Part shown: positions 29,761-44,137 of the stretch, piece by piece
How the letters are laid out: every line of letters starts with the position of its first letter
Numbering within the stretch: position 1 is the stretch's first letter
Virus record (IMG/VR): IMGVR_UViG_3300011114_000582
Coordinates: 1-56,931 of that record
Strand: one strand, 5' to 3'
Length of the DNA stretch: 56,931 nt
DNA from: a virus
Program-made: the position numbers and the translations under genes
Notes under the pieces: generated by a model
Database searches by the model: none
What the model was told of the DNA's origin: nothing
Seen by the model: only the letters and a program-made list of their open reading frames with translations

Positions 29761-31323
29761 ATGACTAGTCTAGTTCAAGACTACGCGAATCTGTTCGCTG
29801 GGAATCTGCGGTCCTTTGGACAGTGGGACCCGGCTACTGGTAATATGGTAACGGAGAAATCCGAGGTAACGCTCCAGCACTACGCGGACCATTTGGAGGG
29901 TCGGATGGGGCTGGGTATAGTCCCAATCACGGACGGCGGTACGGTGCTCTTCGGGTGTATCGATGTGGATAATCACGGCAAAGGCTCGGATGGGTCCGAC
30001 ATCGACATCCCGAAGCTTGTGGAGAAGATCGAGCATTATCGGCTCCCGCTGGTAGCTACCCGGAGCAAGTCGGGTGGAGCACACTTGTACCTGTTCGGCG
30101 AGGAGTATCTTCCGGCCAAGCTCGTGATTCGGCTCCTGAATTCGTGGCGCGACATGCTCCAAATCCCGAACCACGTGGACATCTTCCCGAAGCAGGACTC
30201 GCTGACCACGTCCAGTGGCGAGAAGTCGCTCGGGAACTGGATTAACCTGCCGTTCTTCGACAAAGACAAGACGGTGCGGTACGCGGTGGATGACAAAGGT
30301 CAGAAGATGTCGTTCGAGCTGTTCATTACCTACGCCCAGTCGCGTCGGGTTACAGTGGCGGCACTGCAGGAGATGGCCCACCGGGAGCACTTGGAGGCCC
30401 CGCCGTGCATCCAAAAGATGATCCACACGGGCGTCGAATCCGGTTCTCGCAACGACTCAATGTATAATGTGGTGGTGTATCTTAAGCGTGCCCGCCCCGA
30501 CACGTTCTTTGACGATGCGATGGCACTGAACCGCACAATGTTCGACAAGCCGCTCGGTCCCGCTGAAGCCAAGAAGGTGATTCGGTCCGCGTCGCGCCGT
30601 GACTACTTGTACAAATGTAGCGAGGAGCCGTGCAAGTCGCTCTGCGACCGCAAGGTGTGCGTAACCCGCGAGTTCGGTATCTCGACCGAGGAGAGCAAAG
30701 AGCTTGATGCACAGGACCAACTGCCGCAGTTCACCGAACTGATCGAGTACCAGTCTGAACCCCCACGCTGGGGCATCCACGTCAACGGGAAGCTTATCGC
30801 GAACATCCCGACTATTATCCTACGTGACCCCGCCGCAATGGGCACGCTGATCTTCGAACAGCTCAAGATCAATATCCCCAAGATTACTCAAGATTCGTGG
30901 CGACGCCGCATTCTCGACCCGCTCATCCCGACCTTACGGGTGATCGAAGTGCCAAAAGAAGCGAGTGCGTCGGGTATCATTGCCGCGAAGTTCAACGAAT
31001 TCGTGCAAAAGGCCGACCTGACCTCCGATGGCACCAACACTGAGGATCGCAAGGCACTGACCCGCAACATCCCTGTGGTGCAAGTCATCAACGGCGTGCG
31101 GTGTATCGTGTTCCGGGGCACGGCCTTCTCCGAATTCCTCAAGCGCAACAAAGCCGAGGTAATGACGGGGATGGACTTGTGGACGTCATTGCGGCGAGAC
31201 TGTGGCGCGGACCACGACAAGCTCCGAATCCCGGGCGGCAAGCCCATCAATGTCTGGTATGCTCCTATAACTGAAGATCACGAGGTGAAAGTCGATGAAC
31301 CCAAGTTCCGATCAGAATTCTAA
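29761..31323 (+). CDS. DNA primase, archaeo-eukaryotic (AEP/PrimPol-like)
   Basis: A 520-residue protein with an AEP catalytic core. FGCIDVDNH gives the metal-binding Asp68 and Asp70. TRSKSGGAHLYLF gives the sugar-handling motif with His108. NHVDIFPKQD supplies the third acidic residue (Asp140), followed by GNWINLPFF. This series matches the TOTE/PrimPol type of primases. After the core comes a helical PriCT-like region and a cysteine cluster (CSEEPCKSLCDRKVC, near residue 285-300) that may bind zinc. It makes primers for phage replication. Cyanophage S-2L, also a base-Z virus, uses an AEP PrimPol. The gene is first in the early operon and overlaps the helicase gene. Confidence 0.8.
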   Translation: MTSLVQDYANLFAGNLRSFGQWDPATGNMVTEKSEVTLQHYADHLEGRMGLGIVPITDGGTVLFGCIDVDNHGKGSDGSDIDIPKLVEKIEHYRLPLVATRSKSGGAHLYLFGEEYLPAKLVIRLLNSWRDMLQIPNHVDIFPKQDSLTTSSGEKSLGNWINLPFFDKDKTVRYAVDDKGQKMSFELFITYAQSRRVTVAALQEMAHREHLEAPPCIQKMIHTGVESGSRNDSMYNVVVYLKRARPDTFFDDAMALNRTMFDKPLGPAEAKKVIRSASRRDYLYKCSEEPCKSLCDRKVCVTREFGISTEESKELDAQDQLPQFTELIEYQSEPPRWGIHVNGKLIANIPTIILRDPAAMGTLIFEQLKINIPKITQDSWRRRILDPLIPTLRVIEVPKEASASGIIAAKFNEFVQKADLTSDGTNTEDRKALTRNIPVVQVINGVRCIVFRGTAFSEFLKRNKAEVMTGMDLWTSLRRDCGADHDKLRIPGGKPINVWYAPITEDHEVKVDEPKFRSEF

Positions 31324-33037
31324 AGTGCAGATCGCCTACGATGCAAAGACCAGTCGATTCGTTATCCACTCGCCGCCGTGGATGGTGGACAAGATTCGCC
31401 GTATTCCCAATCGGCGTTGGGATTCTCGTCGCCGCGTGTGGACAGCTCCTGCTCTACGGGCTAATAGCGAGTTCCTGCTTGGTAATTTTGACGCTGACAC
31501 ATTTACAAGCGATGCTCGCACGGTTGCAACTGAGACTATCGAGCGCGTACGCACGAATCAAGTAGCGGCGTTTCCGCCGGTCTACACGTTCAAGACTACG
31601 CCACGACCCTACCAGCTCAAAGGCCTCGATCATGCGTGGAATAAGAGCACATTCGCGTTCTACATGGATATGGGTACGGGCAAGACCAAGACTTCGCTCG
31701 ACCTCTTTGCCGCCTACTTTATGGACGCCAAGGTGGACCGAGTGCTGATCGTCACCAAGTTCAGCACACGCAAGAACTGGGAACGTGAGGTCCTCATCCA
31801 TTGCCCGATGGAGTGCGACACGATGATTCTCGACACCGGGAAGCCCAAGGCGTTCGAGGAGTGGAATACCGCGACCGATGGCCGCCTGAAGTTTCTGATC
31901 GTCGGCACCGAGTCGCTGGCGGCCGGTGGTGCGGTGCATCTTGCGCAAAAGTTCGTGGACTGCAGTACCCGCGTCGGCATGATCGTGGACGAGGCGCATA
32001 TGATCAAAAATCACTCAGCGGTGCGCAGTAAGAACTGCGTCAAGCTGGGCAAATCCGCGAATTACAAAGTGATCATGACGGGCACGCCAGTGGCGAATGG
32101 CCCCATGGACATCTTCATGCAATTCGAGTTCCTCGATCCGAACATTATCGGGATCGGGGATTTCTACTCTTTCCGCAATCGGTACGCGATCATGGGCGGG
32201 TATGAGGATCGGCAAGTGGTGGGCTACCAGAATATGGAAGAGCTTATCGAGCTGATCTCGCCGTTCATCTACCAAGTTCGCAAGTCCGAGGTGCTGACGG
32301 AGTTACCACCAAAAGTGTATCAGACCCGCGAGGTCCAGCTAACTGATGAACAAAAACGACTATATAAAGACATTGCTAAACGTGACAAGACGGTATCTGG
32401 AGATCAAGGAATCACCGTCAAGACGGTGCTTGAGCGAATGCTCCGGCTCCAAGAGATCGCCGGGGGTATCATCACCTTCGAGCGCAACCCCGACCTCTAC
32501 GATGCGGCGAAGTTCACGCACAATCGCATTGCAGGAAAGAATCCGAAAGTCGAAGAGCTACTCGCTATAGCCGAGGAGAACGACGCCAGTACGATCGTGT
32601 GGTGCCGGTTTATCGAGGAAATTCGTATGGTGTGCGAGGCCCTGCGCGAGAAGTACGGGCACGACTCTGTGGTGGAAATCCATGGCGGCATCTCCGAGAA
32701 TGACCGCGACCACAACGTGCAGAATCTGTTCCAGACTGGCAAAGCGCGATTTCTTGTGGGCAACGCGGCCACCGGCGGTGTAGGTCTGAACATGACTCGT
32801 GCGGAGTTGGTAGTGTACTACTCCAATTCGTTCTCTTTCACCGATCGCGAGCAGTCCGAGGACCGTGCACACCGGATTGGGCAGACGCGAAGCGTAACGT
32901 ACATCGACATCATCGCCGAAGGCACTGTGGATGCGGCCGTCACGCAAGCGTTACGCGAGAAAAAGGATGTGAGCGAGTTCGTGCGGACGAGCATCAACGA
33001 CCGAAACGATCGGAACTTGCTAGGCACGCTCGTGTAG
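31295..33037 (+). CDS. SNF2-like superfamily 2 helicase/ATPase
   Basis: A 580-residue protein with full SNF2 motifs. After an N-terminal region resembling HARP-type wings (IPNRRWDSRRRVWTAPALRA), TPRPYQLKGL is the Q-type motif. GTGKT (residues 127-131) is motif I, DEAH (232-235) motif II and TGTP (262-265) motif III. The second RecA lobe has VEIHGGISENDRDHNVQ, GNAATGGVGLNMTRAE and QSEDRAHRIGQTRSV (motifs IV-VI). Such enzymes translocate on or anneal DNA. Paired with the primase by a 29-base overlap, it may serve replication initiation or fork restart. No DnaB-like helicase is seen in the genome. Confidence 0.85.
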   Translation: MNPSSDQNSKVQIAYDAKTSRFVIHSPPWMVDKIRRIPNRRWDSRRRVWTAPALRANSEFLLGNFDADTFTSDARTVATETIERVRTNQVAAFPPVYTFKTTPRPYQLKGLDHAWNKSTFAFYMDMGTGKTKTSLDLFAAYFMDAKVDRVLIVTKFSTRKNWEREVLIHCPMECDTMILDTGKPKAFEEWNTATDGRLKFLIVGTESLAAGGAVHLAQKFVDCSTRVGMIVDEAHMIKNHSAVRSKNCVKLGKSANYKVIMTGTPVANGPMDIFMQFEFLDPNIIGIGDFYSFRNRYAIMGGYEDRQVVGYQNMEELIELISPFIYQVRKSEVLTELPPKVYQTREVQLTDEQKRLYKDIAKRDKTVSGDQGITVKTVLERMLRLQEIAGGIITFERNPDLYDAAKFTHNRIAGKNPKVEELLAIAEENDASTIVWCRFIEEIRMVCEALREKYGHDSVVEIHGGISENDRDHNVQNLFQTGKARFLVGNAATGGVGLNMTRAELVVYYSNSFSFTDREQSEDRAHRIGQTRSVTYIDIIAEGTVDAAVTQALREKKDVSEFVRTSINDRNDRNLLGTLV

Positions 33038-33905: not shown

Positions 33906-34649
33906 ATGGCTAAAAATCAAGTAGCAGTAAAAGAAGAGTTCGAACTTGTGACTAACGAGATTCCGGATTTTTTAAAGCAAGGTAATCGGGGCGCGGAGAA
34001 TGTCGGTACTGACGACATGATTATCCCCCGCATAGAGCTGATCCAAGCACTGTCCCCAGTGCGCAAGAAAAGCGATCCCGCCTACATCGAAGGCGCAGAG
34101 GAAGGAATGCTGTACAATAACGTCACTCGCACGCTGTACGGCACTGAGGTCACTGTGGTGCCGGTGTACTACACGAAGCAGTTCCTCGTGTGGAAAGACC
34201 GTAAGGCGGGCGGTGGTGGTAGCAACGGCTTCCGTGGAGCGTTCGCCACAAAAGAACTGGCCGACCGCGCAATCGCGGAGCTGGCCGAAGAAGCGTTGGA
34301 AGTGTCCGATACGGCTCAACACTTCGTGCTGGTTCGCAATGGCGACGACTGGCAAGAAGCGGTGATCTCGATGGCCAAGTCCAAGATCAAGGTGTCCAAG
34401 CGTTGGAATTCGCTGATGCGACTCACCAACACGGACTCGTTCAGCCGCGCCTACAAGCTGTCGGCAGTGACCGAGACCAATGCAAGGAACGAAAGCTACT
34501 TCAACTTCAACGTCTCGGCCCTTGGGTTCGTGAATAAGGACCTGTACGAGCGTGCCGAGAAGCTGTATGAAACGATCCGCGCCGGTGGTGTCAAGGTCTC
34601 CAATGACTACGACGGCGAAGTGAACGAAGTCGCAGAATCCGAGTATTGA
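33906..34649 (+). CDS. Putative ssDNA-associated early protein
   Basis: A 247-residue protein with an acidic C-terminus (YDGEVNEVAESEY). The N-terminus contains IPDFLKQGNRGAENVGTDDM and IIPRIELIQALSPV, and the middle has an OB-like beta region (EVTVVPVYYTKQFLVW). Then comes ISMAKSKIKVSKRWNSLMRL with many basic residues. Proteins of this type are regularly found with phage primases and recombinases. An acidic tail after a basic core suggests nucleic-acid binding, such as an SSB-like or annealing role, but no diagnostic motif is present. It has an individual hairpin leader and is followed by a hairpin. Confidence 0.65.
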   Translation: MAKNQVAVKEEFELVTNEIPDFLKQGNRGAENVGTDDMIIPRIELIQALSPVRKKSDPAYIEGAEEGMLYNNVTRTLYGTEVTVVPVYYTKQFLVWKDRKAGGGGSNGFRGAFATKELADRAIAELAEEALEVSDTAQHFVLVRNGDDWQEAVISMAKSKIKVSKRWNSLMRLTNTDSFSRAYKLSAVTETNARNESYFNFNVSALGFVNKDLYERAEKLYETIRAGGVKVSNDYDGEVNEVAESEY

Positions 34650-34687: not shown

Positions 34688-34969
34688 ATGGCTACTAAAA
34701 AGCAAGTCGAGACACCGGCAGAAGACGTGCTCGAAGAATTCAAAGAGATCGTATCCACGATGCCTATCCCTCCAGTTTCACAGGACGAGAGCGACGAAGA
34801 GCGTCGGGTTCGCAATATCAACACGTCTTTTGACGCGAATGTTCACTATCTGCGCACTCTACGCGACGCCTACCACGACAGTGCGGTGCAAGAGATGTTT
34901 ACCACAGCGATCGCGCACACAGTCACGGCTCAAATGTGGGCAGTGCGTGCAGTGAAGTATCGCGGCTAA
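34688..34969 (+). CDS. Small helical early protein
   Basis: A 93-residue protein with a Lys-rich start (ATKKQVETPAEDVLEEFKEI) and a helical C-terminal half (DANVHYLRTLRDAYHDSAVQ, TTAIAHTVTAQMWAVRAVKY). Its stop overlaps the helicase ATG (TAATG), so the two are coupled. It may assist the UvrD-like helicase. No family recognised. Confidence 0.66.
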   Translation: MATKKQVETPAEDVLEEFKEIVSTMPIPPVSQDESDEERRVRNINTSFDANVHYLRTLRDAYHDSAVQEMFTTAIAHTVTAQMWAVRAVKYRG

Positions 34970-36384
34970 TGCAAGTTCACGCCATCTACGGACCCCCCGG
35001 GACTGGCAAGACCACGGAGCTGTTGCGGCGAGTGAAGGAGACTCGCGATTCAGGCATTCAAGCCGAACGAGTCGCTTTCGTCTCTTTCACCCGTGCGGCG
35101 GCATCCGAGGCACTCTCCCGGCTGGGTCTCAAGCGATCGGACAATGTGTCCACCATCCACGCGATGGCTTTTCGTCACATGGGCTTGCGGCAAACGCAAG
35201 TAGTGGACGCGATGAAGCTTCGCGAATTTTCAACAGTAATGGGGATACCGATTATTGGTAAATCCCCGGAAGACGATGAGGAGCGTGCCGATGGAGACTT
35301 CTACCTTGACCTACTCAATTACGCCCGGAACACCTTTTCCAATCCGGCAGAGGTGTACGACATCTCGGACCGGCCGGGTACTCGGGCCGAGTTTAATGCG
35401 TTCGTTCGGGCATACGCTGATTGGAAATCTACGTATGGCTATTACGACTTCACCGATATGCTTGAGCGTGCCGCCACTGGCGCGGTTCGAGCGGACGCCG
35501 AGGTTGTATTTGTCGACGAAGCTCAAGACCTATCACCTCTTCAGTGGGCTGTTATCGAGAAGCTCGTCAGACGTTCTCACGAAGTGCATATCGCAGGGGA
35601 CGACGATCAGGCGATTTATACGTGGGCCGGTGCGGATGTACACGGTATGGCACGATTCACACAAAAGCACAAGGGTGATAGCCATGTGCTCTCGTACTCG
35701 CATCGACTTCCTGCTTCAGTCCACGCACGATCTCAAGACCTCATCCGTCGAGTCGCATTCCGCGTGGATAAGGAGTTTAGTCCCAAAGCAGATTTGGGAT
35801 TGGTCCGATTACACGGGTCGATACACTCCGTGGACATCACGCATGGAGAAGATATACTTCTACTGGGACGGACGCATTCAGTCCTTCGGGAAGTTGAGCA
35901 ATCGCTCATCGAACGTCGGATTCCGTACACACGCGAATCGGGACGCCCTGGACTTTACCAGAATCGTTATGCCGCCGGTCTCCGAGCGTTCCGCAAGATG
36001 GGCCGAGGCGAGCGAATCACCGATGGGGAGCGAAACGCAATATTCACCATTTCCAGTGCTGAGACTCGCAGGCTTCTTGAAGCGGGCGACCTCGCCACTC
36101 TTGGTCGAACCCCATTTTACGTGGCCCTCCAAATCCCCGGCCGAGTCGTGGACTTTTACGCAGACGCTGACCTCGACACTGAGCCGACTATCCGACTCTC
36201 TACGATTCATGCGGCAAAAGGCCATGAAGCGGATCGAGTCATTCTTCTCACCGACATGACCACGCGGGTACAGCAGACCGCCGAGAAGTCACCGGACGAC
36301 GAGGTCCGAGTGTTCTACGTCGGAATGACTCGATCCAAGCGCGTACTAGATATAGTGGAGGGGTACAACGGCTACAAATTGTGA
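34969..36384 (+). CDS. UvrD/Rep-like superfamily 1 helicase
   Basis: A 471-residue SF1 helicase. The ATG at 34969 is chosen because it overlaps the upstream stop and puts the P-loop (YGPPGTGKT, residues 7-15) at the N-terminus. Other motifs: FVSFTRAAASEAL (Ia), STIHAMAFR, DEAQDLSP (183-190, motif II), GDDDQAIYTWAGA (motif III), LSYSHRLP (IV), STIHAAKGHEADRVIL (V), and FYVGMTRSKRVL (VI). It is about two-thirds the length of UvrD and lacks long 1B/2B insertions, like T4 Dda-type enzymes. It likely removes obstacles during replication or repair. A strong promoter begins right after its stop. Confidence 0.9.
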   Translation: MQVHAIYGPPGTGKTTELLRRVKETRDSGIQAERVAFVSFTRAAASEALSRLGLKRSDNVSTIHAMAFRHMGLRQTQVVDAMKLREFSTVMGIPIIGKSPEDDEERADGDFYLDLLNYARNTFSNPAEVYDISDRPGTRAEFNAFVRAYADWKSTYGYYDFTDMLERAATGAVRADAEVVFVDEAQDLSPLQWAVIEKLVRRSHEVHIAGDDDQAIYTWAGADVHGMARFTQKHKGDSHVLSYSHRLPASVHARSQDLIRRVAFRVDKEFSPKADLGLVRLHGSIHSVDITHGEDILLLGRTHSVLREVEQSLIERRIPYTRESGRPGLYQNRYAAGLRAFRKMGRGERITDGERNAIFTISSAETRRLLEAGDLATLGRTPFYVALQIPGRVVDFYADADLDTEPTIRLSTIHAAKGHEADRVILLTDMTTRVQQTAEKSPDDEVRVFYVGMTRSKRVLDIVEGYNGYKL

Positions 36385-36453: not shown

Positions 36454-36717
36454 ATGGCGTACGACAACACTAATTCGGGCATGATGGCTCGAAATGAGAA
36501 TCGCAAGACCGACAAGCACCCGGAATTCTCCGGCTCGATCAACGTAGAGGGTGTGGATTATTGGCTCTCGGCGTGGGTAAACGAGGGCAAGCCCGGCGGG
36601 AAGCTCGAAGGCAAGAAATACTTCTCCATTAAGCTGTCGCGCAAAGAAGGCGGTTCTGCCGCTACTGGCCGTCCAGCCAGCGACTCCAATTTCGTGTCTG
36701 ACGACATCCCGTTCTGA
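36454..36717 (+). CDS. Small protein with SSB-type acidic tail
   Basis: An 87-residue protein with KHPEFSGSINVEGVDYWLSA, WVNEGKPGGKLEGKKYFSIK and a low-complexity linker ending in SDDIPF. The DDIPF ending is the same as the tip of bacterial SSB (DDDIPF), which recruits many replication and repair enzymes. The GSI-VEG-YWLSAWVNEG pattern resembles a compact beta (OB-like) family of small phage and rhizobial proteins. It is coupled to the polymerase (TGATG). A ssDNA-binding or SSB-mimic role is plausible. The body is much shorter than a normal SSB. Confidence 0.72.
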   Translation: MAYDNTNSGMMARNENRKTDKHPEFSGSINVEGVDYWLSAWVNEGKPGGKLEGKKYFSIKLSRKEGGSAATGRPASDSNFVSDDIPF

Positions 36718-38552
36718 TGACCGAATTCCCACGCATTGACCACGCTCCGGTGGTGGTCATCGACACCGAGACCACGGGGCTGAAGTGGTGGGCCGACAAG
36801 CTGTTCGGCATTTCCATCGCGCTCCCCGGGTTCTCGGGGTACTGGGACGTCCGGTCCGATCCTTACGTGATCACGTGGCTCAACGACCTAATCGCCGAGA
36901 AACGTGTCGATCTGTGGGTCGGCCATAACCTCAAATTCGACCTCCACTTCCTGCGGGAAGCTGGTGTGGCGATTCCGCTGGACCGAATCGACTGCACGAT
37001 GACCCGTGCCGCCCTGATCTCGGAGCACGAACCCACGTACGCACTCGACTTCCTCGCCCGCAAATACTGCGGGATGAAGAAGGACGACGAGATCTACGAG
37101 GAGATGTCGCGCATCTTCGGTGGCCGCCCGACTCGCAACGCGCAGATGCCGAACATTTCACGCGCTCCGATCAGCATTGTGTCCAAGTACGCGATCCAAG
37201 ACGCCGTGGTGACGCTGGCACTGTACAACTGGCAAGAGGAGCAGATGCGGACGCAGAATCTCGCGCAGGTTCACAAGCTCGAGCGCGACCTAATGCCCGT
37301 GATTATGGATATGGAAGAGCAGGGTGTGCGGGTGGACGTTGGGCTGGCTGAGAAGGCCGTCCGTGACCTCACCGTGCGCGTTGACAATATGCAGAGGGAT
37401 CTGAATAGCTTGGCCGGTTTCGAGGTCAACCCGAACCCTTCCGGATCGATCGCCGATCTGTTCAAGCCCAAGCTCGGGGACGATAATGAGTGGTATCTCA
37501 TCGACGGCACGAAAGCGGACAAGACCGACGGCGGCAAGGCCTCGATCAACGCCGACTGCTTGCGACGCATGAAGCACCCCGCCGCGAAGATGATTCTCGA
37601 CTTGCGCAAAATGCTCAAGACTCGCGACACTTTCCTTTCGGGCCACATTCTCGGACATGAACACGATGGCATCATTCATTGCAACTATAACCAGACTAAG
37701 AATGACAGTGAAGCGGGTACAGGCACTGGACGGCTCAGTGTTACAAATCCGGCTCTACAACAAATACCTTCGCGGGACACTGCTATTAAGGCGTTGGTCC
37801 GGCCGATTTTCAAGTCGGATTTTGGAGCTAAATGGCTGGGTCTGGACTGGTCCCAATTCGAGTTTCGGGTCGCTAACCATTACGGTCAAGTTCCCGCGAT
37901 CTTGGAGGCGTACAAGGCGAACCCGCAACTAGACTTCCACCAATTGGTGTCGGACATGACCGGGATCCCCCGCAACGCCCAGTACGCCGGTGGCCCGTCC
38001 TCCAAGGCGATTAACCTCGGACTCGCGTTTAACATGGGATCCGGCCGACTGGCACAGGAGTGCGGATTGCCCTACACCGAGGAGGTGGGACCCAGTGGCA
38101 ACGTGTTCCTGAAGGCGGGACCCGAGGCGATGGCACTGTTCGAGAAGTACCACGCCGCGAACCCCGGGATGCGCAACACCGCGCAGAAGGCGAGTAACAT
38201 CGCGAAGGAGCGTGGCTCAGTGCACTCGGTGATGGGACGCCGCTTGCGCTTTCCCGGTGGACAATTCGTGCACAAGGCGTCGGGGCTGATCTACCAAGCC
38301 ACCAGCGCGGACTGCATGAAGCAAAAGCTCATCGAACTGCACAAGTACTTAACCGCCGAAGGCTGTGGGCGACTACTGCTGACGGTACACGACGAGGTGG
38401 GTATATCGCTCGATAATGACTCACTCGACAAAGCGCATGAGGTAGCACGAATCTACACGACCTTTGATGGTGTAGAATGCCCCATTCATCTACGTGTTCC
38501 AATCACGTGCGACTGGGGTGTAGGCGAAGACTGGTACGAAGCGAAAGGATAG
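36717..38552 (+). CDS. Family A DNA polymerase, candidate DpoZ
   Basis: A 611-residue polymerase. The 3'-5' exonuclease domain has DTETTGL (Asp16, Glu18), GHNLKFDLHFL and KYAIQDAVVTLAL. The polymerase has GTGRLSVTNPALQQIP, motif A LDWSQFEFRV (Asp377), O-helix SSKAINLGLAFNMG (Lys430, Leu434, Phe438) and motif C TVHDEVG (His558, Asp559, Glu560). Leu434 matches E. coli Phe762 and Phe438 matches Tyr766; the equivalent of Arg754 seems absent. It is followed at once by purZ, mazZ and datZ, so it is a candidate DpoZ that prefers 2-aminoadenine. No 5'-3' exonuclease domain is present. Confidence 0.9.
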   Translation: MTEFPRIDHAPVVVIDTETTGLKWWADKLFGISIALPGFSGYWDVRSDPYVITWLNDLIAEKRVDLWVGHNLKFDLHFLREAGVAIPLDRIDCTMTRAALISEHEPTYALDFLARKYCGMKKDDEIYEEMSRIFGGRPTRNAQMPNISRAPISIVSKYAIQDAVVTLALYNWQEEQMRTQNLAQVHKLERDLMPVIMDMEEQGVRVDVGLAEKAVRDLTVRVDNMQRDLNSLAGFEVNPNPSGSIADLFKPKLGDDNEWYLIDGTKADKTDGGKASINADCLRRMKHPAAKMILDLRKMLKTRDTFLSGHILGHEHDGIIHCNYNQTKNDSEAGTGTGRLSVTNPALQQIPSRDTAIKALVRPIFKSDFGAKWLGLDWSQFEFRVANHYGQVPAILEAYKANPQLDFHQLVSDMTGIPRNAQYAGGPSSKAINLGLAFNMGSGRLAQECGLPYTEEVGPSGNVFLKAGPEAMALFEKYHAANPGMRNTAQKASNIAKERGSVHSVMGRRLRFPGGQFVHKASGLIYQATSADCMKQKLIELHKYLTAEGCGRLLLTVHDEVGISLDNDSLDKAHEVARIYTTFDGVECPIHLRVPITCDWGVGEDWYEAKG

Positions 38553-38557
38553 AGGTA

Positions 38558-39685
38558 ATGGACAATATTAGAATCGTAGTCGATCTGCAATACGGGAGCA
38601 CCGGCAAGGGGCTGATCGTGGGCAAGATCGCGGAGGACGTGGCACCCGACACGGTGATCACCGCGTGGGCACCCAATGCGGGGCACACGTACATCGCCAA
38701 AGACGGACGCAAGTTCATCCACACACACCTTGCCAATGGCATCGTGTCGCCCGGTCTCCGTCGAGTGCTACTCGGCCCCGGCTCGTTGATTAACCCTCAG
38801 CAACTGCTGGCCGAGATCGCCGCGTGCTCCGATTTACTCGAGGACGTGCAGATTCTCATCCACCCGCACGCCGCCGTAGTGACAGACCGTCACATCGAGG
38901 AGGAAGCCGGGCCGATGACCAAGATCGGTTCGACTAAAAAAGGCGTGGGTGCCGCAATGTGCCAGCGCATTCGACGCGATCCGGATGACCTGAATATCGC
39001 CGCCGATTGTGAGGAACTGTCGAAATATGTGGTCACTGTAGCCGCCTATCGCACCGCACTGCGCGACGCCAAAACCGTGCTGGTCGAAGGCGCACAGGGC
39101 TACGGGCTGTCGATGTACCACGGCTTTTACCCCTACACTACCTCGCGCGACGTGAGCCTGTGGCAGATCCTTGCCGATTGCGGTATCCCGTACGACTTGC
39201 TCCCACATATCATGGGCGAGCTGGCGATCAACGTGGTCGGCACGTGCCGTACCTACCCAATCCGAGTGGCGAACCGATTCGACACGCACGGCACACAAGT
39301 CGGGTACTCCGGCCCGTGCTACGGCGACCAAATCGAGATCTCGTTCGAGGAGATCGGGCAGAAGACCGAGCTGACCACTGTCACCAAGCTCCCACGCCGC
39401 ATCTTTACGTTTAGCCGCCAGCAGATCGCGGAGGCGATCGAGTACAATGGTGCTCGCGAGATCTTCCTGAACTTCGTTAATTACTGCCGGAGCGAAGAAG
39501 AGGTGCGCGACATCGTAGAATCAATCGAACGCACGCCGGAGACGGTGGTCAGGTGGATCGGACTGGGACCCGAGTACAAAGACGTGTATTCAATGCCACA
39601 GTACGGTGCCGAGGCGCGAATTGCGCGAATTCTTGAACTTTGGAGAGCTTATGCTACAGGTAGAATCAACAGTACACACGGATGA
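38558..39685 (+). CDS. purZ: PurZ, 2-aminoadenylosuccinate synthetase
   Basis: A 375-residue PurA-family enzyme. Start ATG 38558 follows GATAGAGGTA. The nucleotide-binding loop reads YGSTGKG (Gly13 to Gly18), where cellular PurA has GDEGKG; the catalytic Asp is Ser14, the hallmark of phage PurZ. NAGHT, KIGSTKKGVGAA, VEGAQGYGLSMYHG and CRTYPIRVANR support the family and its archaeal/phage branch. PurZ joins dGMP and aspartate to form the precursor that host PurB turns into dZMP (2-amino-dAMP). MazZ and DatZ genes follow. It overlaps mazZ by 35 bases. Confidence 0.9.
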   Translation: MDNIRIVVDLQYGSTGKGLIVGKIAEDVAPDTVITAWAPNAGHTYIAKDGRKFIHTHLANGIVSPGLRRVLLGPGSLINPQQLLAEIAACSDLLEDVQILIHPHAAVVTDRHIEEEAGPMTKIGSTKKGVGAAMCQRIRRDPDDLNIAADCEELSKYVVTVAAYRTALRDAKTVLVEGAQGYGLSMYHGFYPYTTSRDVSLWQILADCGIPYDLLPHIMGELAINVVGTCRTYPIRVANRFDTHGTQVGYSGPCYGDQIEISFEEIGQKTELTTVTKLPRRIFTFSRQQIAEAIEYNGAREIFLNFVNYCRSEEEVRDIVESIERTPETVVRWIGLGPEYKDVYSMPQYGAEARIARILELWRAYATGRINSTHG

Positions 39686-40154
39686 AGCCAATGAACTTCC
39701 ATGGGCGATTCATCCCGAACGGGCGGCAGAAATTGTCGATGCGCAAGGCGCAACCGTCGCGTCTTTCGAAGTCCGTCACCACTTGCGTGGTGTTATGGGG
39801 AACTGCGATAAAAATGCCGACCTTGCGGTCCGTGCGGTCAACGCGTATAAAAAGCGTGGTGGCGCAGATATCCGACAACTTCAGGATCGAATTACCAAGT
39901 GGGCTGACGCGAACTTTCCGGCGCGTACCACTGCGGACATCCTCCTCAAGCTCTACGAGGAGGTGGGCGAGTACGCTCGTAACCCAAAAGCCGCTCTCGA
40001 AATGGGTGACATCATGATCCTCTTGCTCGACGTCGCACACAAAAACGGTATAGACGTACATAGGGCAGTGGAGGAGAAGATGGACATCAACGAGACCCGC
40101 ACGTGGGCGGTGGATAGTCACACGAGGATCATGCGCCATGTCGAAACGGAATGA
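39651..40154 (+). CDS. mazZ: MazZ, MazG-like dGTP pyrophosphohydrolase, N-terminally extended
   Basis: A 167-residue protein. ATG 39651 follows TTGGAGAG. The C-terminal domain (about 75-150) has the MazG metal motif: LYEEVGEYA (Glu103, Glu104, Glu107) and ALEMGDIMILLLD (Glu117, Asp120). In base-Z phages MazZ converts dGTP to dGMP, the substrate of PurZ. Residues about 15-70 carry a separate module, AIHPERAAEIVDAQGATVAS and NADLAVRAVNAYKKRGG, known as a small domain of unknown function in many phages; here it seems fused to MazZ. The assignment rests on the motif and its place between purZ and datZ. Confidence 0.85.
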   Translation: MLQVESTVHTDEANELPWAIHPERAAEIVDAQGATVASFEVRHHLRGVMGNCDKNADLAVRAVNAYKKRGGADIRQLQDRITKWADANFPARTTADILLKLYEEVGEYARNPKAALEMGDIMILLLDVAHKNGIDVHRAVEEKMDINETRTWAVDSHTRIMRHVETE

Positions 40155-40353
40155 CGAATTTAACAAGTGGTACGAGCAGACCTTCGGTGGTGTGCTCGGG
40201 TCCGAGGACGACGAGAATCGGGAAGCGGTGAAGAAGATCTGGAATGGCGCACTGGAGCACATCGCTCGCCGGTACGAATTTCAGCTCTTCGACGAACTGT
40301 CGGGCGACCAGATTGCGGACCAGATCCGCCGACTGCAGGCGGTGAAATCATGA
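40138..40353 (+). CDS. Small protein in base-Z operon
   Basis: A 71-residue charged helical protein (SKRNDEFNKWYEQTFGGVLG, then AVKKIWNGALEHIARRYEFQ and ELSGDQIADQIRRLQAVKS). It overlaps mazZ by 17 bases and the next gene by 4, so it is co-translated. No family is recognised. Confidence 0.66.
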   Translation: MSKRNDEFNKWYEQTFGGVLGSEDDENREAVKKIWNGALEHIARRYEFQLFDELSGDQIADQIRRLQAVKS

Positions 40354-40646
40354 ACACTGAGCATATCGAACATATGTGGAAGGTGGCGAGCAATGATCCG
40401 AATCATGACACGAATTGGCATGACCCAGTTGTCGTAGCTTTCGCTAACTTGGTTGCAAAACACACACTTGCAAACATTGACCCAAGCAGTTTTATGTCAT
40501 GGCAAGAGGGGTACGAGGCAGGTAAGCAGACTGAGCGTGAGGCGTGTGCAAAGGTATGTGATGAATACGATGTAGCAGAGGATGTGAATTCCTGCGACAC
40601 GGCTGAAGGAATTGCCATTGCCATCCGAGCAAGGGGACAAGCATGA
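40350..40646 (+). CDS. Small protein with AIRARGQA ending
   Basis: A 98-residue protein. ATG 40350 overlaps the upstream stop. It contains DPVVVAFANLVAKHTLANID and YEAGKQTEREACAKVCDEYD, the latter a pattern common in short phage proteins of Burkholderiales. It ends IAIAIRARGQA, nearly as its neighbour does. The last 27 bases recur at the end of the next gene. Function unknown. Confidence 0.65.
   Translation: MNTEHIEHMWKVASNDPNHDTNWHDPVVVAFANLVAKHTLANIDPSSFMSWQEGYEAGKQTEREACAKVCDEYDVAEDVNSCDTAEGIAIAIRARGQA
40620..40646 (+). repeat. Gene-junction repeat, copy 1
   Basis: A 27-bp sequence starting GCCATCCGAGCAAGGGG encodes the end of one small gene and contains the ATG of the next. A copy with one difference lies at 40823-40849, also at a gene junction. 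Confidence 0.85.
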
Positions 40647-40849
40647 ACACACAACCCGAAGCCCTGAGGTTTGCAAATGCATTGGATGTAATGGCGCGTG
40701 GACTTATTGGAACGGCGAATCATATAGAAGCCGCTTCAGAACTGCGCCGCCTGTTTCAGTTGGCACACGATCAGCACACGGAGATTTATGGTTTGAAACT
40801 TGAAGTGGAAAACCTGCGCGCCGCCATCCGAGCAAGGGGGCAAGCATGA
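40643..40849 (+). CDS. Small helical protein with AIRARGQA ending
   Basis: A 68-residue protein (NTQPEALRFANALDVMARGL, then EAASELRRLFQLAHDQHTEI and LKLEVENLRAAIRARGQA). It looks helical, with a final leucine-rich segment that may form a coiled coil. It overlaps the previous gene by 4 bases and shares its C-terminal codons. Likely a member of a shuffled family of small phage genes; role unknown. Confidence 0.65.
   Translation: MNTQPEALRFANALDVMARGLIGTANHIEAASELRRLFQLAHDQHTEIYGLKLEVENLRAAIRARGQA
40823..40849 (+). repeat. Gene-junction repeat, copy 2
   Basis: Second copy of the 27-bp junction sequence (one mismatch to 40620-40646). The gene lying between the copies could be gained or lost by homologous recombination without disturbing flanking frames. 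Confidence 0.85.
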
Positions 40850-40941
40850 CTTGGCCCTTCCCACCCTTCCCGAATCCGAAGCACAAAGATGTGCGCAAGC
40901 CTAAATTTAACCCCGAGAATTACGAGGACGCACCCATATGA
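40846..40941 (+). CDS. Tiny proline/basic ORF before datZ
   Basis: A 31-residue ORF, TWPFPPFPNPKHKDVRKPKF in its first part. Its ATG lies in the junction repeat and its stop overlaps the DatZ start (ATGA), so translation could pass from the upstream gene to datZ through it. It may be a real micropeptide or a coupling element. Confidence 0.5.
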   Translation: MTWPFPPFPNPKHKDVRKPKFNPENYEDAPI

Positions 40942-41501
40942 GTTTAACAGTATACGAACAACTTCGCGCATGCCACGTTAGACGCTGGCACATCGTGCAG
41001 ACGTCGCGAGAGCAGACGCTGGCCGAGCATTCTTTCGCAGTCGCGGTGATAGCGGGGTCCCTTGCGGCGGCTATGCGCTGGAACGGACTCTTGCAGGAGT
41101 CGGGCAAGCTCAAGCTCTTGCAGTGGGCACTCGCGCACGACATCATCGAGGTGCGCACCGGGGATATGCCGACGCCGTTCAAGCGAGACCTAGAAGCCGT
41201 AGGGGGTAAGGGTATCGTGGAAAAGGCCGAGGACCGAGTGGACGCCGACACGATGGCCGCTTACCGTCAGGTGCGCGGGACCGAAGTCGAGACGATCGTC
41301 AAGCTCGCGGACCAGATCGAGGCGATCTTTTTCCTGCAGGACAACGGAGTCGGGGCACACGCCAAGCAAGTGCTCGATGGCCTTCGTGCGATCCTGTCCG
41401 ACATGGTGAACGAGGCCGAACGCCAGTTCCCCAAGCTGTCGCCCCGCGAGTCGGTGCGCCGCGTTTGCAACGATATAGGCATTACAGGGGGATGGTTATG
41501 A
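40938..41501 (+). CDS. datZ: DatZ, HD-domain dATP triphosphohydrolase
   Basis: A 187-residue HD-domain protein of the YfbR-related type. RRWHIVQTSREQTLAEHSF gives His31; WALAHDIIEVRTGDMPTP gives His67, Asp68 and Glu71; VKLADQIEAIFF gives Asp125. These are the metal-binding and catalytic residues. DatZ removes the triphosphate from dATP, clearing adenine from the pool so that the polymerase must use dZTP. It is encoded in the same operon as purZ and mazZ. The NrdR-like gene begins on its last bases. Confidence 0.88.
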   Translation: MSLTVYEQLRACHVRRWHIVQTSREQTLAEHSFAVAVIAGSLAAAMRWNGLLQESGKLKLLQWALAHDIIEVRTGDMPTPFKRDLEAVGGKGIVEKAEDRVDADTMAAYRQVRGTEVETIVKLADQIEAIFFLQDNGVGAHAKQVLDGLRAILSDMVNEAERQFPKLSPRESVRRVCNDIGITGGWL

Positions 41502-41740
41502 ACTGCATCAAGTGCGGCGAGGACACCCGAGTCACGACCACGTACCAAAACGCCAATGGCATCACCCGCCGTCGCCGGATTTGTAACCACTGCGAATTTC
41601 GCTTCACCACCCGCGAAAAGGCCGACGAGCGCGATATAGAGCGTGCCGAACTGCCCGAGCCGCCGAAGGACAAGAAAAAGAAGGGGGTTGACAACCTATC
41701 GCAGGTGTGGTATAATTCGTCCCCTACCAATAAACCATAG
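41498..41740 (+). CDS. NrdR-like zinc ribbon protein without ATP cone
   Basis: An 80-residue protein. ATG 41498 overlaps the DatZ stop. The N-terminus (MNCIKCGEDTRVTTTYQNAN then RRRRICNHCEFRFTTREKA) matches the zinc ribbon of NrdR: CxxC, RRRR, CxxC and RFTT. NrdR represses ribonucleotide reductase operons. The ATP-cone domain that senses dATP is absent here. A basic tail (PPKDKKKKG) follows, and the last codons overlap the next promoter. It might bind NrdR boxes or another DNA target. Given that DatZ depletes dATP, loss of a dATP sensor is notable. Confidence 0.72.
   Translation: MNCIKCGEDTRVTTTYQNANGITRRRRICNHCEFRFTTREKADERDIERAELPEPPKDKKKKGVDNLSQVWYNSSPTNKP
41688..41716 (+). promoter_or_regulatory. 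Strong promoter of the deacetylase gene
   Basis: TTGACA (41688-41693), 17 bases, TATAAT (41711-41716) with TGG extension. The spacer has CAGGTGTG, whose CAGGTG core is the reverse complement of the CACCTG found in sister promoters. The leader contains CATAGAGGACACC before ATG 41754. Confidence 0.9.
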
Positions 41741-41753
41741 AGGACACCACACG

Positions 41754-42611
41754 ATGACGATTCGCACCCCCGTATTCTACCACCCGGCCCAAGAGGTCTC
41801 CTACGACTTTATCTCGGTGAGCAAGATCCCCAAGTTCATCGCCCAGTCGGGTGCGGAGGTGCGTTCCGACTTCGGTCCCTACACGACGGCTGACTTGGAG
41901 GAGGCCCACAGCCGTGAGTATGTCCATGGGGTCCTCGACCATACCACTCCGAACGGCTTCGGCACGATCGACCCCGAGCTTACTAACTCGCTCCTGTACT
42001 CGAACGCCGGCCACTGGACGGCGGCTCGCCACGTGCTCCAGCACGGCGGTGTCGCGTGCTCCGCGACGCAGGGCTTCCACCACGCGCACTTCGAGGACGG
42101 CTACGGCTACTGCACGTTCAACGGCCTGATGATCACCGCGATGAAGGCACTGCGCAACGGCGCGAAGAACGTGCTGATTATCGACGGCGATGGACACCAC
42201 GGCGATGGCACCGAGGACGTGATGGACCACCTGATGATCCGGGGCCGCGTGGTGCACATCACTCGCCCCGACATAGGACGCCCTATCCACTCGCAGTGGA
42301 ATGCCAAGATGTGGCAGTCGTTTGCTAAGGGATTGATTCGAGACTCGAAGGCGGGTATAATTCTGTATCAGGCCGGTGCTGACGCTTGGGACCGCGATCC
42401 CTATGGCGTCGGATACCTGTCCAAGGAGGGTCTTGCGGCCCGCGATCGTGGCATCTTCACCGCCGCACGCGACGCCGGGGTCCCATTAGTCTGGAATCTG
42501 GCCGGTGGATACGCGAAGAAGATGCAAGACACGATCGACATCCACCTGCAAACGCTGGCAATCAGCGACGAGGTCTACCATGCCACTGCCGAATCAACTG
42601 TCGTTCGCTGA
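41754..42611 (+). CDS. Histone-deacetylase-fold hydrolase
   Basis: A 285-residue arginase/deacetylase-fold enzyme. The HDAC active site is complete: His109-His110 in GFHHAHF, metal ligands Asp146 and His148 in IDGDGHHGDG, Asp210 in YQAGADAWDRD, and the transition-state Tyr253 in LAGGYA. The family removes acetyl or related acyl groups from lysines, polyamines or small amides with zinc. It has its own strong promoter and follows the base-Z genes. Phage target unknown; candidates are host proteins or acetylpolyamines. Shorter than typical HDACs (about 350 residues) at the N-terminus. It overlaps the next gene by 32 bases. Confidence 0.85.
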   Translation: MTIRTPVFYHPAQEVSYDFISVSKIPKFIAQSGAEVRSDFGPYTTADLEEAHSREYVHGVLDHTTPNGFGTIDPELTNSLLYSNAGHWTAARHVLQHGGVACSATQGFHHAHFEDGYGYCTFNGLMITAMKALRNGAKNVLIIDGDGHHGDGTEDVMDHLMIRGRVVHITRPDIGRPIHSQWNAKMWQSFAKGLIRDSKAGIILYQAGADAWDRDPYGVGYLSKEGLAARDRGIFTAARDAGVPLVWNLAGGYAKKMQDTIDIHLQTLAISDEVYHATAESTVVR

Positions 42612-43851
42612 CCTAATGCAAGGGGTGGGTAAGGGCCATCGCGCTCTTGCCGCTCTCCCCGAAGCCCAGCGTATTCCGCTCGGAATGCGGCAAGCGCAGA
42701 AGACCATGCTCCCCGCCGAGGTGCTGGAGCAGTACAACAAGGCCGGGATTTTCGGCAAGACTACCAGCGGCGAGCCGATTCGTGCCACAATGTCCTCGAT
42801 GAATCAGGATGCCGTGAAAAGCGGATTCATGCCGCAGACGGGCAAGATCCGACTTGACCCCGAGAGCAAAGTGCCAAAGGACCTCGACGAGGCGCACGCA
42901 CGCGGCTACCACCCGAACATCACTTGGGACCGTGGACGAGTGCGTCCCGGTAAAGAGGATATGGGGTACGGCCTCGAGCAGTACATGATAGCGGCGGCGG
43001 CACGGGATCCCCGCTACCAGTCCGCGATGCGTCAGCCCTTTTCCAGCTCGCGCCCCGATCCGGTAATGACCGAACTGTACGCGATGGACGTCAAGCCCGA
43101 CGCCTACGGAATGCGGGACCCCGATTCCGCATGGTGGAAGAATCTACCGGCGAAAGGTAAAGAGCTGTACGCGCTGGCGTACGACATGATGCGAGCACAG
43201 GGCCACGGCAATGTGTCTTCGCACCTGACCGATGTGAACACCGCCCGACGACTGGGCAACATCGCGTCGCACTCGCTCGGCCACGGCGACCTCGGCTTCA
43301 TCGCTCCGGTGGAGGAATGGGGCCATATGCCCGGAATGTCGGGCCAGCTCTTCTCCAGCCCCGTCCAGTCCGCACACGCCGAGGACTACTACCTCAAGAA
43401 GCTCTTTGGCGGCCCCGGTCTCAAGACGAACCAAAAGACCGACGAACTGATGGACGCGGCGGCGGACCTGCGCACGCCCGATTTCTTGCAGATGACGCCG
43501 GACCAGACCCTCGGCACGCTTTTCACACGCGAAGCGCAGATGGCGGGAGCCTATGGCCCCGGCACTGGCACCCAGTCGCCCCTGCGAGTCAGCCAAGTGC
43601 GTCCCTACGAGAACGTCTTGCTCAAGAATCTAGCCGAGCCTCAAGTGCTCGCGAACCCCGGTAGCATCCAAGGCGCGATGGGTCCCACAACGCTGGGCCG
43701 ACAGGCGACCACCGAGGCGATCATTCGCGGAATGCTCAAAGGGTACGAACCCGAGGAGGTGATCGAGCGTTTGGTGCTCGAAGCCCCCGCCGGTGCCTAC
43801 AAGGGCCGGTACAAAAAAGGAGGACTGGCTCATGCCGCAGTCATCGCTTGA
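42580..43851 (+). CDS. Unknown 423-residue protein with KKGG tail
   Basis: ATG 42580 has GAGG seven bases upstream and overlaps the deacetylase gene. The protein starts PLPNQLSFADLMQGVGKGHR and is mixed helical, with GHGNVSSHLTDVNTARRLGN and FIAPVEEWGHMPGMSGQLFS in the middle. Its C-terminus YKGRYKKGGLAHAAVIA carries the same GG tag as several virion-region proteins. This suggests it may be carried in the virion despite its early location. No catalytic motif recognised. Downstream gene start lies within its last codons. Confidence 0.7.
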   Translation: MPLPNQLSFADLMQGVGKGHRALAALPEAQRIPLGMRQAQKTMLPAEVLEQYNKAGIFGKTTSGEPIRATMSSMNQDAVKSGFMPQTGKIRLDPESKVPKDLDEAHARGYHPNITWDRGRVRPGKEDMGYGLEQYMIAAAARDPRYQSAMRQPFSSSRPDPVMTELYAMDVKPDAYGMRDPDSAWWKNLPAKGKELYALAYDMMRAQGHGNVSSHLTDVNTARRLGNIASHSLGHGDLGFIAPVEEWGHMPGMSGQLFSSPVQSAHAEDYYLKKLFGGPGLKTNQKTDELMDAAADLRTPDFLQMTPDQTLGTLFTREAQMAGAYGPGTGTQSPLRVSQVRPYENVLLKNLAEPQVLANPGSIQGAMGPTTLGRQATTEAIIRGMLKGYEPEEVIERLVLEAPAGAYKGRYKKGGLAHAAVIA

Positions 43852-44137
43852 TCTAGATGGGGTGGTCGCGGAGCGCGGCGCATCGTACGGCGACTACACG
43901 ACCCAAGCCGAGATCGCCCAAACGCTGAAGGACCTATTTCGCGAGTGCCCCGGCTGGGAGCGGCTGGAGTACCACCAGCGCGAATCGCTCGACATGATCG
44001 CGTGCAAGGCCTCCCGGATTTTGAACGGCGACCCGAATCACCTCGACTCGTGGGTGGACATCGCGGGGTACGCGACCATCGTGGCGGCACGAATACCGAA
44101 GGGGGGTATTGACAAGGCTACCCCACCTGTGGTATAA
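43832..44137 (+). CDS. DUF6378-type conserved phage protein
   Basis: A 101-residue protein. ATG 43832 is chosen for the strong AAGGAGG site at 43817-43823. The core (ERGASYGDYTTQAEIAQTLK, YHQRESLDMIACKASRILNG, LDSWVDIAGYATI) fits my recollection of DUF6378, found in many phages and of unknown function. The DxW-DxAGYA region suggests a compact helical fold. The stop TAA lies inside the TATAAT of the next promoter. Confidence 0.75.
   Translation: MPQSSLDLDGVVAERGASYGDYTTQAEIAQTLKDLFRECPGWERLEYHQRESLDMIACKASRILNGDPNHLDSWVDIAGYATIVAARIPKGGIDKATPPVV

Follow-up and report, generated by a model that had tools for sequence, protein, structure and literature searches.

A predicted 2-aminoadenine (Z) pathway of the PurZ/phiVC8-like DpoZ kind in a clade of environmental phages

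The DNA analysed here, referred to as the window, comprises one IMG/VR virus record, 56,931 bases in length. It carries four genes on the plus strand within one gene run: a family A DNA polymerase with a 3'-5' exonuclease (36717–38552), a PurA homologue with the motif GSTGKG (38558–39685), a MazG-like protein (39651–40154) and an HD hydrolase (40938–41501). ORF calling confirmed these positions for the four genes that the original prediction had named as a base-Z operon, and also showed that the run is interrupted, with two or three small ORFs separating the last two genes. The best solved structures were those of phiVC8 DpoZ (7pbk) for the polymerase and of cyanophage S-2L PurZ (7odx), MazZ (7ody) and DatZ (6zpa) for the other three. 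Published determinants (PMC8342488, PMC8065100, PMC8599892) were mapped onto the window proteins by alignment, and nearly all published substrate and metal residues of PurZ, MazZ-1, DatZ and DpoZ were found in them.

The PurA homologue, exactly 375 aa long, scored 343 bits against the NCBIfam PurZ model NF038379 (cut-off 300), and all ordinary PurA models of NCBIfam fell far below their own cut-offs. The catalytic Asp13 of PurA, present in the E. coli enzyme, is Ser in the window protein and in all aligned relatives. The alignment further showed that the base pocket, the TTVT aspartate loop and V241 are retained, as are the S-2L dGMP-pocket residues except C204, which is Thr. Phylogeny had been set as the test of whether this protein belongs with PurZ or with PurA. 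In a maximum-likelihood tree of 44 proteins it indeed grouped with PurZ, in a clade with support of 100/98 that includes the window, phiVC8, ZP6, BUCT555, Bm1, SH-Ab 15497, PMBT28, PSA28 and S-2L and is separate from both PurZ0 and E. coli PurA. The gene thus encodes a predicted N6-succino-2-amino-2'-deoxyadenylate synthetase (PurZ), which, judging from these residues and this placement, would use dGMP and aspartate, and not IMP. We considered whether it could instead be an ordinary adenylosuccinate synthetase that boosts the adenine supply, with the MazG and HD proteins serving general nucleotide housekeeping and the DNA being normal. PurZ does belong to the fold family of PurA (PF00709), and some phages, among them Flavobacterium phage MaF61, encode a PurA-like protein while the 7 kb inspected showed no Z-cluster. 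However, the model scores, the Ser in place of Asp13 and the nesting inside the PurZ clade all argue for PurZ, and a DatZ that destroys dATP would counteract any gain in adenine, making an ordinary PurA very improbable.

PurZ-like proteins with 30–37% identity also occur in bacterial and archaeal genomes (L080–L157), including those of cultured Sphingomonas, Mesorhizobium and Stenotrophomonas, and many have GSEGKG and so carry Ser where PurA has Asp13. In the tree, the ones included were basal or nearer PurZ0. Because so many of these cellular proteins share the Ser, this residue by itself is not proof of PurZ. Close relatives of the window protein, which would name a host or reveal a provirus, were not found in bacterial or archaeal genomes; a profile search of cellular genomes returned mostly distant PurZ-like proteins (31–36%), along with two contigs from metagenome bins that are probably of phage origin (L078, L079).

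The MazG-like protein contains the metal motifs EEVGE and EMGD and matched the dATP/dGTP pyrophosphohydrolase family PF04447 with 37.5 bits (cut-off 23). It retains E34, E35, E38, E50, D53, I56, L57, D60, K76, N80, R83, W85, M93, R94 and H95. Among these, the metal residues E35, E38, E50 and D53, the guanine residues I56 and D60, and R83 were found in the window protein and throughout the 60 sequences aligned, a count to which the copy of the window itself (L001) and the reference loci L061–L065 may have contributed. The protein differs from S-2L at I16, N20 and A92, which are reported as unique to S-2L. As the S-2L metal and substrate residues are retained, the protein was assigned to MazZ type 1 and, by analogy, is a predicted (d)GTP-specific pyrophosphohydrolase. 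Its N-terminus has about 60 additional residues (39651–39850) with no Pfam match, which were not recognised as DUF5664.

The HD hydrolase shows RRW, AEHS and HD motifs and a distal D, and matched the dATP triphosphohydrolase family phrog_7076 (E 1e-31). It agrees with S-2L DatZ at 15/15 positions covering the HD motif, the two metal sites, the phosphate site and the I22/W20 selectivity residues; the matches include R19, W20, I22, H34, H66, D67, E70, D75, P79, K81, K116 and D119. We therefore refer to it as DatZ, a predicted dATP triphosphohydrolase. The spacer between mazZ and datZ varies greatly in length among relatives. One of its ORFs in the window, of 71 aa on the plus strand (40138–40353), is conserved in most relatives (tblastn) and gave no Pfam match. 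Two small ORFs that follow one another carry at their 3' ends the copies of a 27-nt direct repeat (40620–40646 and 40823–40849; 96% identical).

The polymerase (611 aa) scored 775 bits against the NCBIfam model NF038380, "aminoadenine-incorporating DNA polymerase DpoZ" (cut-off 500), and its exonuclease residues are intact. The DpoZ signature residues F459, L455 and G548 are present, as are R440 and, in helix E2, R161 and M165. All three DpoZ insertions align, the third being shorter than that of phiVC8. Four family A polymerases from phages taken as non-Z, because they were absent from the listed PurZ matches, carry Tyr in place of F459 and Asn in place of G548. The position of phiVC8 S583 is Glu in the window, likewise in PMBT28 and SH-Ab 15497. 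The protein is therefore a predicted 2-aminoadenine-preferring polymerase of the phiVC8-like clade and, by analogy with phiVC8, would prefer dZTP to dATP.

Upstream of DpoZ, the plus strand carries further replication genes. The replication/Z module opens with an archaeo-eukaryotic-type primase (AEP; 29761–31323; PF22548 51 bits, phrog_21866 E 1.6e-125), followed by an SNF2-type helicase (31295–33037; PF00176, phrog_62). Pam3-like small genes lie between this helicase and a UvrD/PcrA-type helicase (34969–36384; PF00580, phrog_1967); one of them, encoding a Pam3 gp34-like protein (33906–34649; PF23977 229 bits), is retained in the PMBT28, SH-Ab 15497 and phiVC8 clusters (tblastn). A single-strand DNA-binding protein (SSB; 36454–36717; phrog_7364, phrog_18154) follows, and the end of its gene overlaps the start of DpoZ.

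Much of this arrangement recurs in known phages. Salmonella phage PMBT28 and Pseudomonas phage PSA28, whose DpoZ and PurZ are ~48% identical to those of the window, have the gp34-like gene, UvrD helicase, DpoZ, PurZ, MazZ and DatZ in the same order. Homologues of the AEP primase and SNF2 helicase were also seen in PMBT28, whereas the PSA28 locus begins later. Both phages differ from the window in that the SSB gene lies after DpoZ, not before it, in a long N-terminal fusion of MazZ that the window protein lacks, and in their virion genes. We know of no base measurement for PMBT28. In Acinetobacter phage SH-Ab 15497, for which the Z-DNA pathway has been characterised, the order is helicase, DpoZ, SSB, PurZ, fused MazZ and DatZ; its PurZ is ~48% identical to that of the window, its MazZ is fused with DUF5664, unlike that of the window, and its DatZ is just 27% identical in the best segment. 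Cyanophage S-2L, in which Z-DNA has been shown and whose PurZ, MazZ and DatZ have been crystallised, shares PurZ, MazZ-1 and DatZ in equal order and with equal active-site residues, but it lacks DpoZ and relies on a PrimPol. Vibrio phage phiVC8, in which Z-DNA and DpoZ have been shown, shares a DpoZ of the same type and DatZ, and its PurZ is 46% identical; in contrast to the window, it has MazZ-2 and an integrase-annotated gene between DpoZ and PurZ. The PurZ0 phages (Arthrobacter phage Wayne and Gordonia phages) reach the same base outcome with DutZ/DmtZ instead of DatZ/MazZ and with another DpoZ group, and the window lies outside their clade. The pathway, its genes and their order are thus already known in several phage groups; what is new here is the environmental clade, the mosaic virion and the conserved accessory genes.

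In the proposed mechanism, MazZ would convert dGTP to dGMP, and PurZ would join aspartate to dGMP with (d)ATP as phosphate donor, yielding a succino intermediate that host PurB and host kinases would carry through dZMP to dZTP. DatZ would degrade dATP and leave dZTP intact, with an Ile (I22 in S-2L) taking up the space that a 2-amino group would need. DpoZ, aided by the phage AEP primase, the SNF2 and UvrD helicases and SSB, would write Z opposite T, so that Z would replace A in virion DNA. The description of this pathway as complete holds for the phage side, of which every gene is present; neither PurB nor a nucleotide kinase was recognised among the phage proteins scanned. In known Z-phages, both functions come from the host (PMC12884076).

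Because the phage carries every known phage-side gene of the Z pathway, its DNA very probably contains Z. We regard it as highly probable that this is a phage of the PurZ/phiVC8-like DpoZ kind with Z replacing A in the virion, a reading supported by the identity of the genes, by their catalytic residues, phylogeny and order, and by their conservation across many relatives. The sequence itself reads Z as A. The enzyme activities, the host steps and the presence of Z in virion DNA are predicted by analogy with characterised relatives, and published Z-DNA work suggests that such DNA would also resist restriction at A-containing sites. With the genes active, substitution could nevertheless be partial, leftover dATP or a moderately selective polymerase giving a mixture of A and Z. 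Indeed, the selectivity of phiVC8 DpoZ is a preference and not a strict block (PMC8599892), and the S-2L PrimPol has no selectivity and depends on DatZ (PMC8065100). However, the window encodes both barriers, a DatZ with the I22-type residue and a DpoZ with the full signature, and tested phages with the same gene set are described as completely substituted (PMC12884076). A mixed genome is therefore improbable, and replacement of A by Z throughout remains our preferred reading.

A PurZ search showed that the cluster is widespread, with related clusters on at least 59 IMG/VR contigs, although conservation across 59 contigs speaks to the genes and not to a base. MazZ adjoins PurZ in 59/59 of these loci, DatZ is absent only from two that stop soon after MazZ, and DpoZ is absent only from those that start in or beside PurZ. 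We found nothing in favour of a relic cassette, inherited yet inactive in the window phage. Against it, all frames are open, no catalytic residue is lost and the proteins are about 83–97% identical in the closest relatives, so that we give an inactive operon almost no credence. Base-Z phages are thus not confined to a few cultured isolates and, on the reading that the operon is active, would include a clade of environmental phages of mostly 53–59 kb. Their DpoZ, PurZ, MazZ and DatZ are new sequences with roughly 50% identity or less to the studied ones and would be useful for enzyme work. One relative, IMGVR_UViG_3300033571_007100 (L050), has its portal gene split across both ends with a short overlap, so that its ~57.4 kb probably represent a complete genome, either circular or circularly permuted. 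No DNA-level relatives were found in INPHARED, and the window contains no tRNA genes and no Rfam families. GATC occurs 324 times in the window against 321 expected and is thus not avoided, unlike CTAG and GCGC. As a sign of restriction pressure, however, palindrome avoidance allows no conclusion, because 22 relatives had no common pattern except low CTAG.

The virion genes point to another history. The portal protein is common to 20/23 records tested and the capsid protein to 18/23; three divergent contigs of 38–40 kb have neither. The freshwater phage MW202545 (L158, L181) has a capsid protein 87.5% identical and a portal 60% identical to those of the window, but its whole record gave no match to any replication/Z gene tested. 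Since MW202545 shares the virion genes without the Z genes, and since PMBT28, with a near-identical replication order, is a Salmonella siphovirus (PMC6025938), the replication/Z and virion modules must differ in history. They were probably exchanged between lineages, as has been proposed for Z-phages (PMC12884076), and the window provides a clear case of a replication/Z module joined to another virion module. MW202545 and the window phage would also lend themselves to a comparison of DNA with and without Z inside capsids of a similar kind.

The phage had been called a podovirus, which we consider likely. Its portal is related to the connector proteins of HTVC023P, HTVC027P, Roseobacter phage CRP-901 and Caulobacter phage RW, and HTVC023P-type phages are treated as Podoviridae (PMC9599517). 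One neighbouring protein gave a weak DNA-ejection-protein match (E 7e-5), and no tail-tube or sheath family was found among 20 proteins scanned. Against a firmer assignment, MW202545, the nearest structural relative, was deposited as Siphoviridae, and the end of a 1629-aa protein resembles the product of a Caulobacter phage GB2A gene whose annotation is tape measure. A siphovirus morphology inferred from the PMBT28-like replication module was set aside, as the virion genes belong to another lineage.

Downstream of DatZ, two plus-strand genes extend the run. The first, at 41498–41740, encodes an NrdR-type zinc ribbon of 80 aa (PF22811 34.6 bits, cut-off 27.2); it overlaps the end of datZ and leaves no room for an ATP-cone. 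Its C3, C6, C29 and C32 and its RRR and FTT motifs are at least 95% conserved (51 sequences), and it is retained in 50/59 IMG/VR relatives. The second, at 41754–42611, encodes a protein of 285 aa resembling HDAC-fold deacetylases and acetylpolyamine amidohydrolases (PF00850 94 bits). Its H109 H110 pair, D146, H148, D210 and Y253 are conserved (46 sequences); by analogy, D146, H148 and D210 would be the zinc ligands, and the deacetylase looks intact. This gene was found in 48/59 loci. Among 25 IMG/VR loci that encode a close relative of the HDAC-fold protein, the zinc ribbon is present in all that reach far enough upstream, and those extending still further carry DatZ. The linkage of both genes to the Z operon is clear. 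Neither was found in the PMBT28, PSA28, SH-Ab 15497, phiVC8 or S-2L loci, distant HDAC proteins occurred in only a few unrelated large phages of the phage collection, and we found no description of this extension after DatZ in the Z-phage literature searched.

The two genes may simply be neighbours within one lineage. Tentatively, and against what we would ourselves expect, this clade's Z operon could have gained two additional functions, an ATP-cone-free NrdR-type regulator and an HDAC-fold deacetylase. If so, the collapse of the dATP pool would make no difference to the zinc ribbon, which would target host ribonucleotide reductase genes or other promoters; the deacetylase, for its part, would act on a host enzyme or a small molecule that the synthesis or packaging of Z-DNA requires. 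Both conserved accessory genes are testable. The same gene run also contains a DUF6378 protein of 114 aa at 43793–44137.
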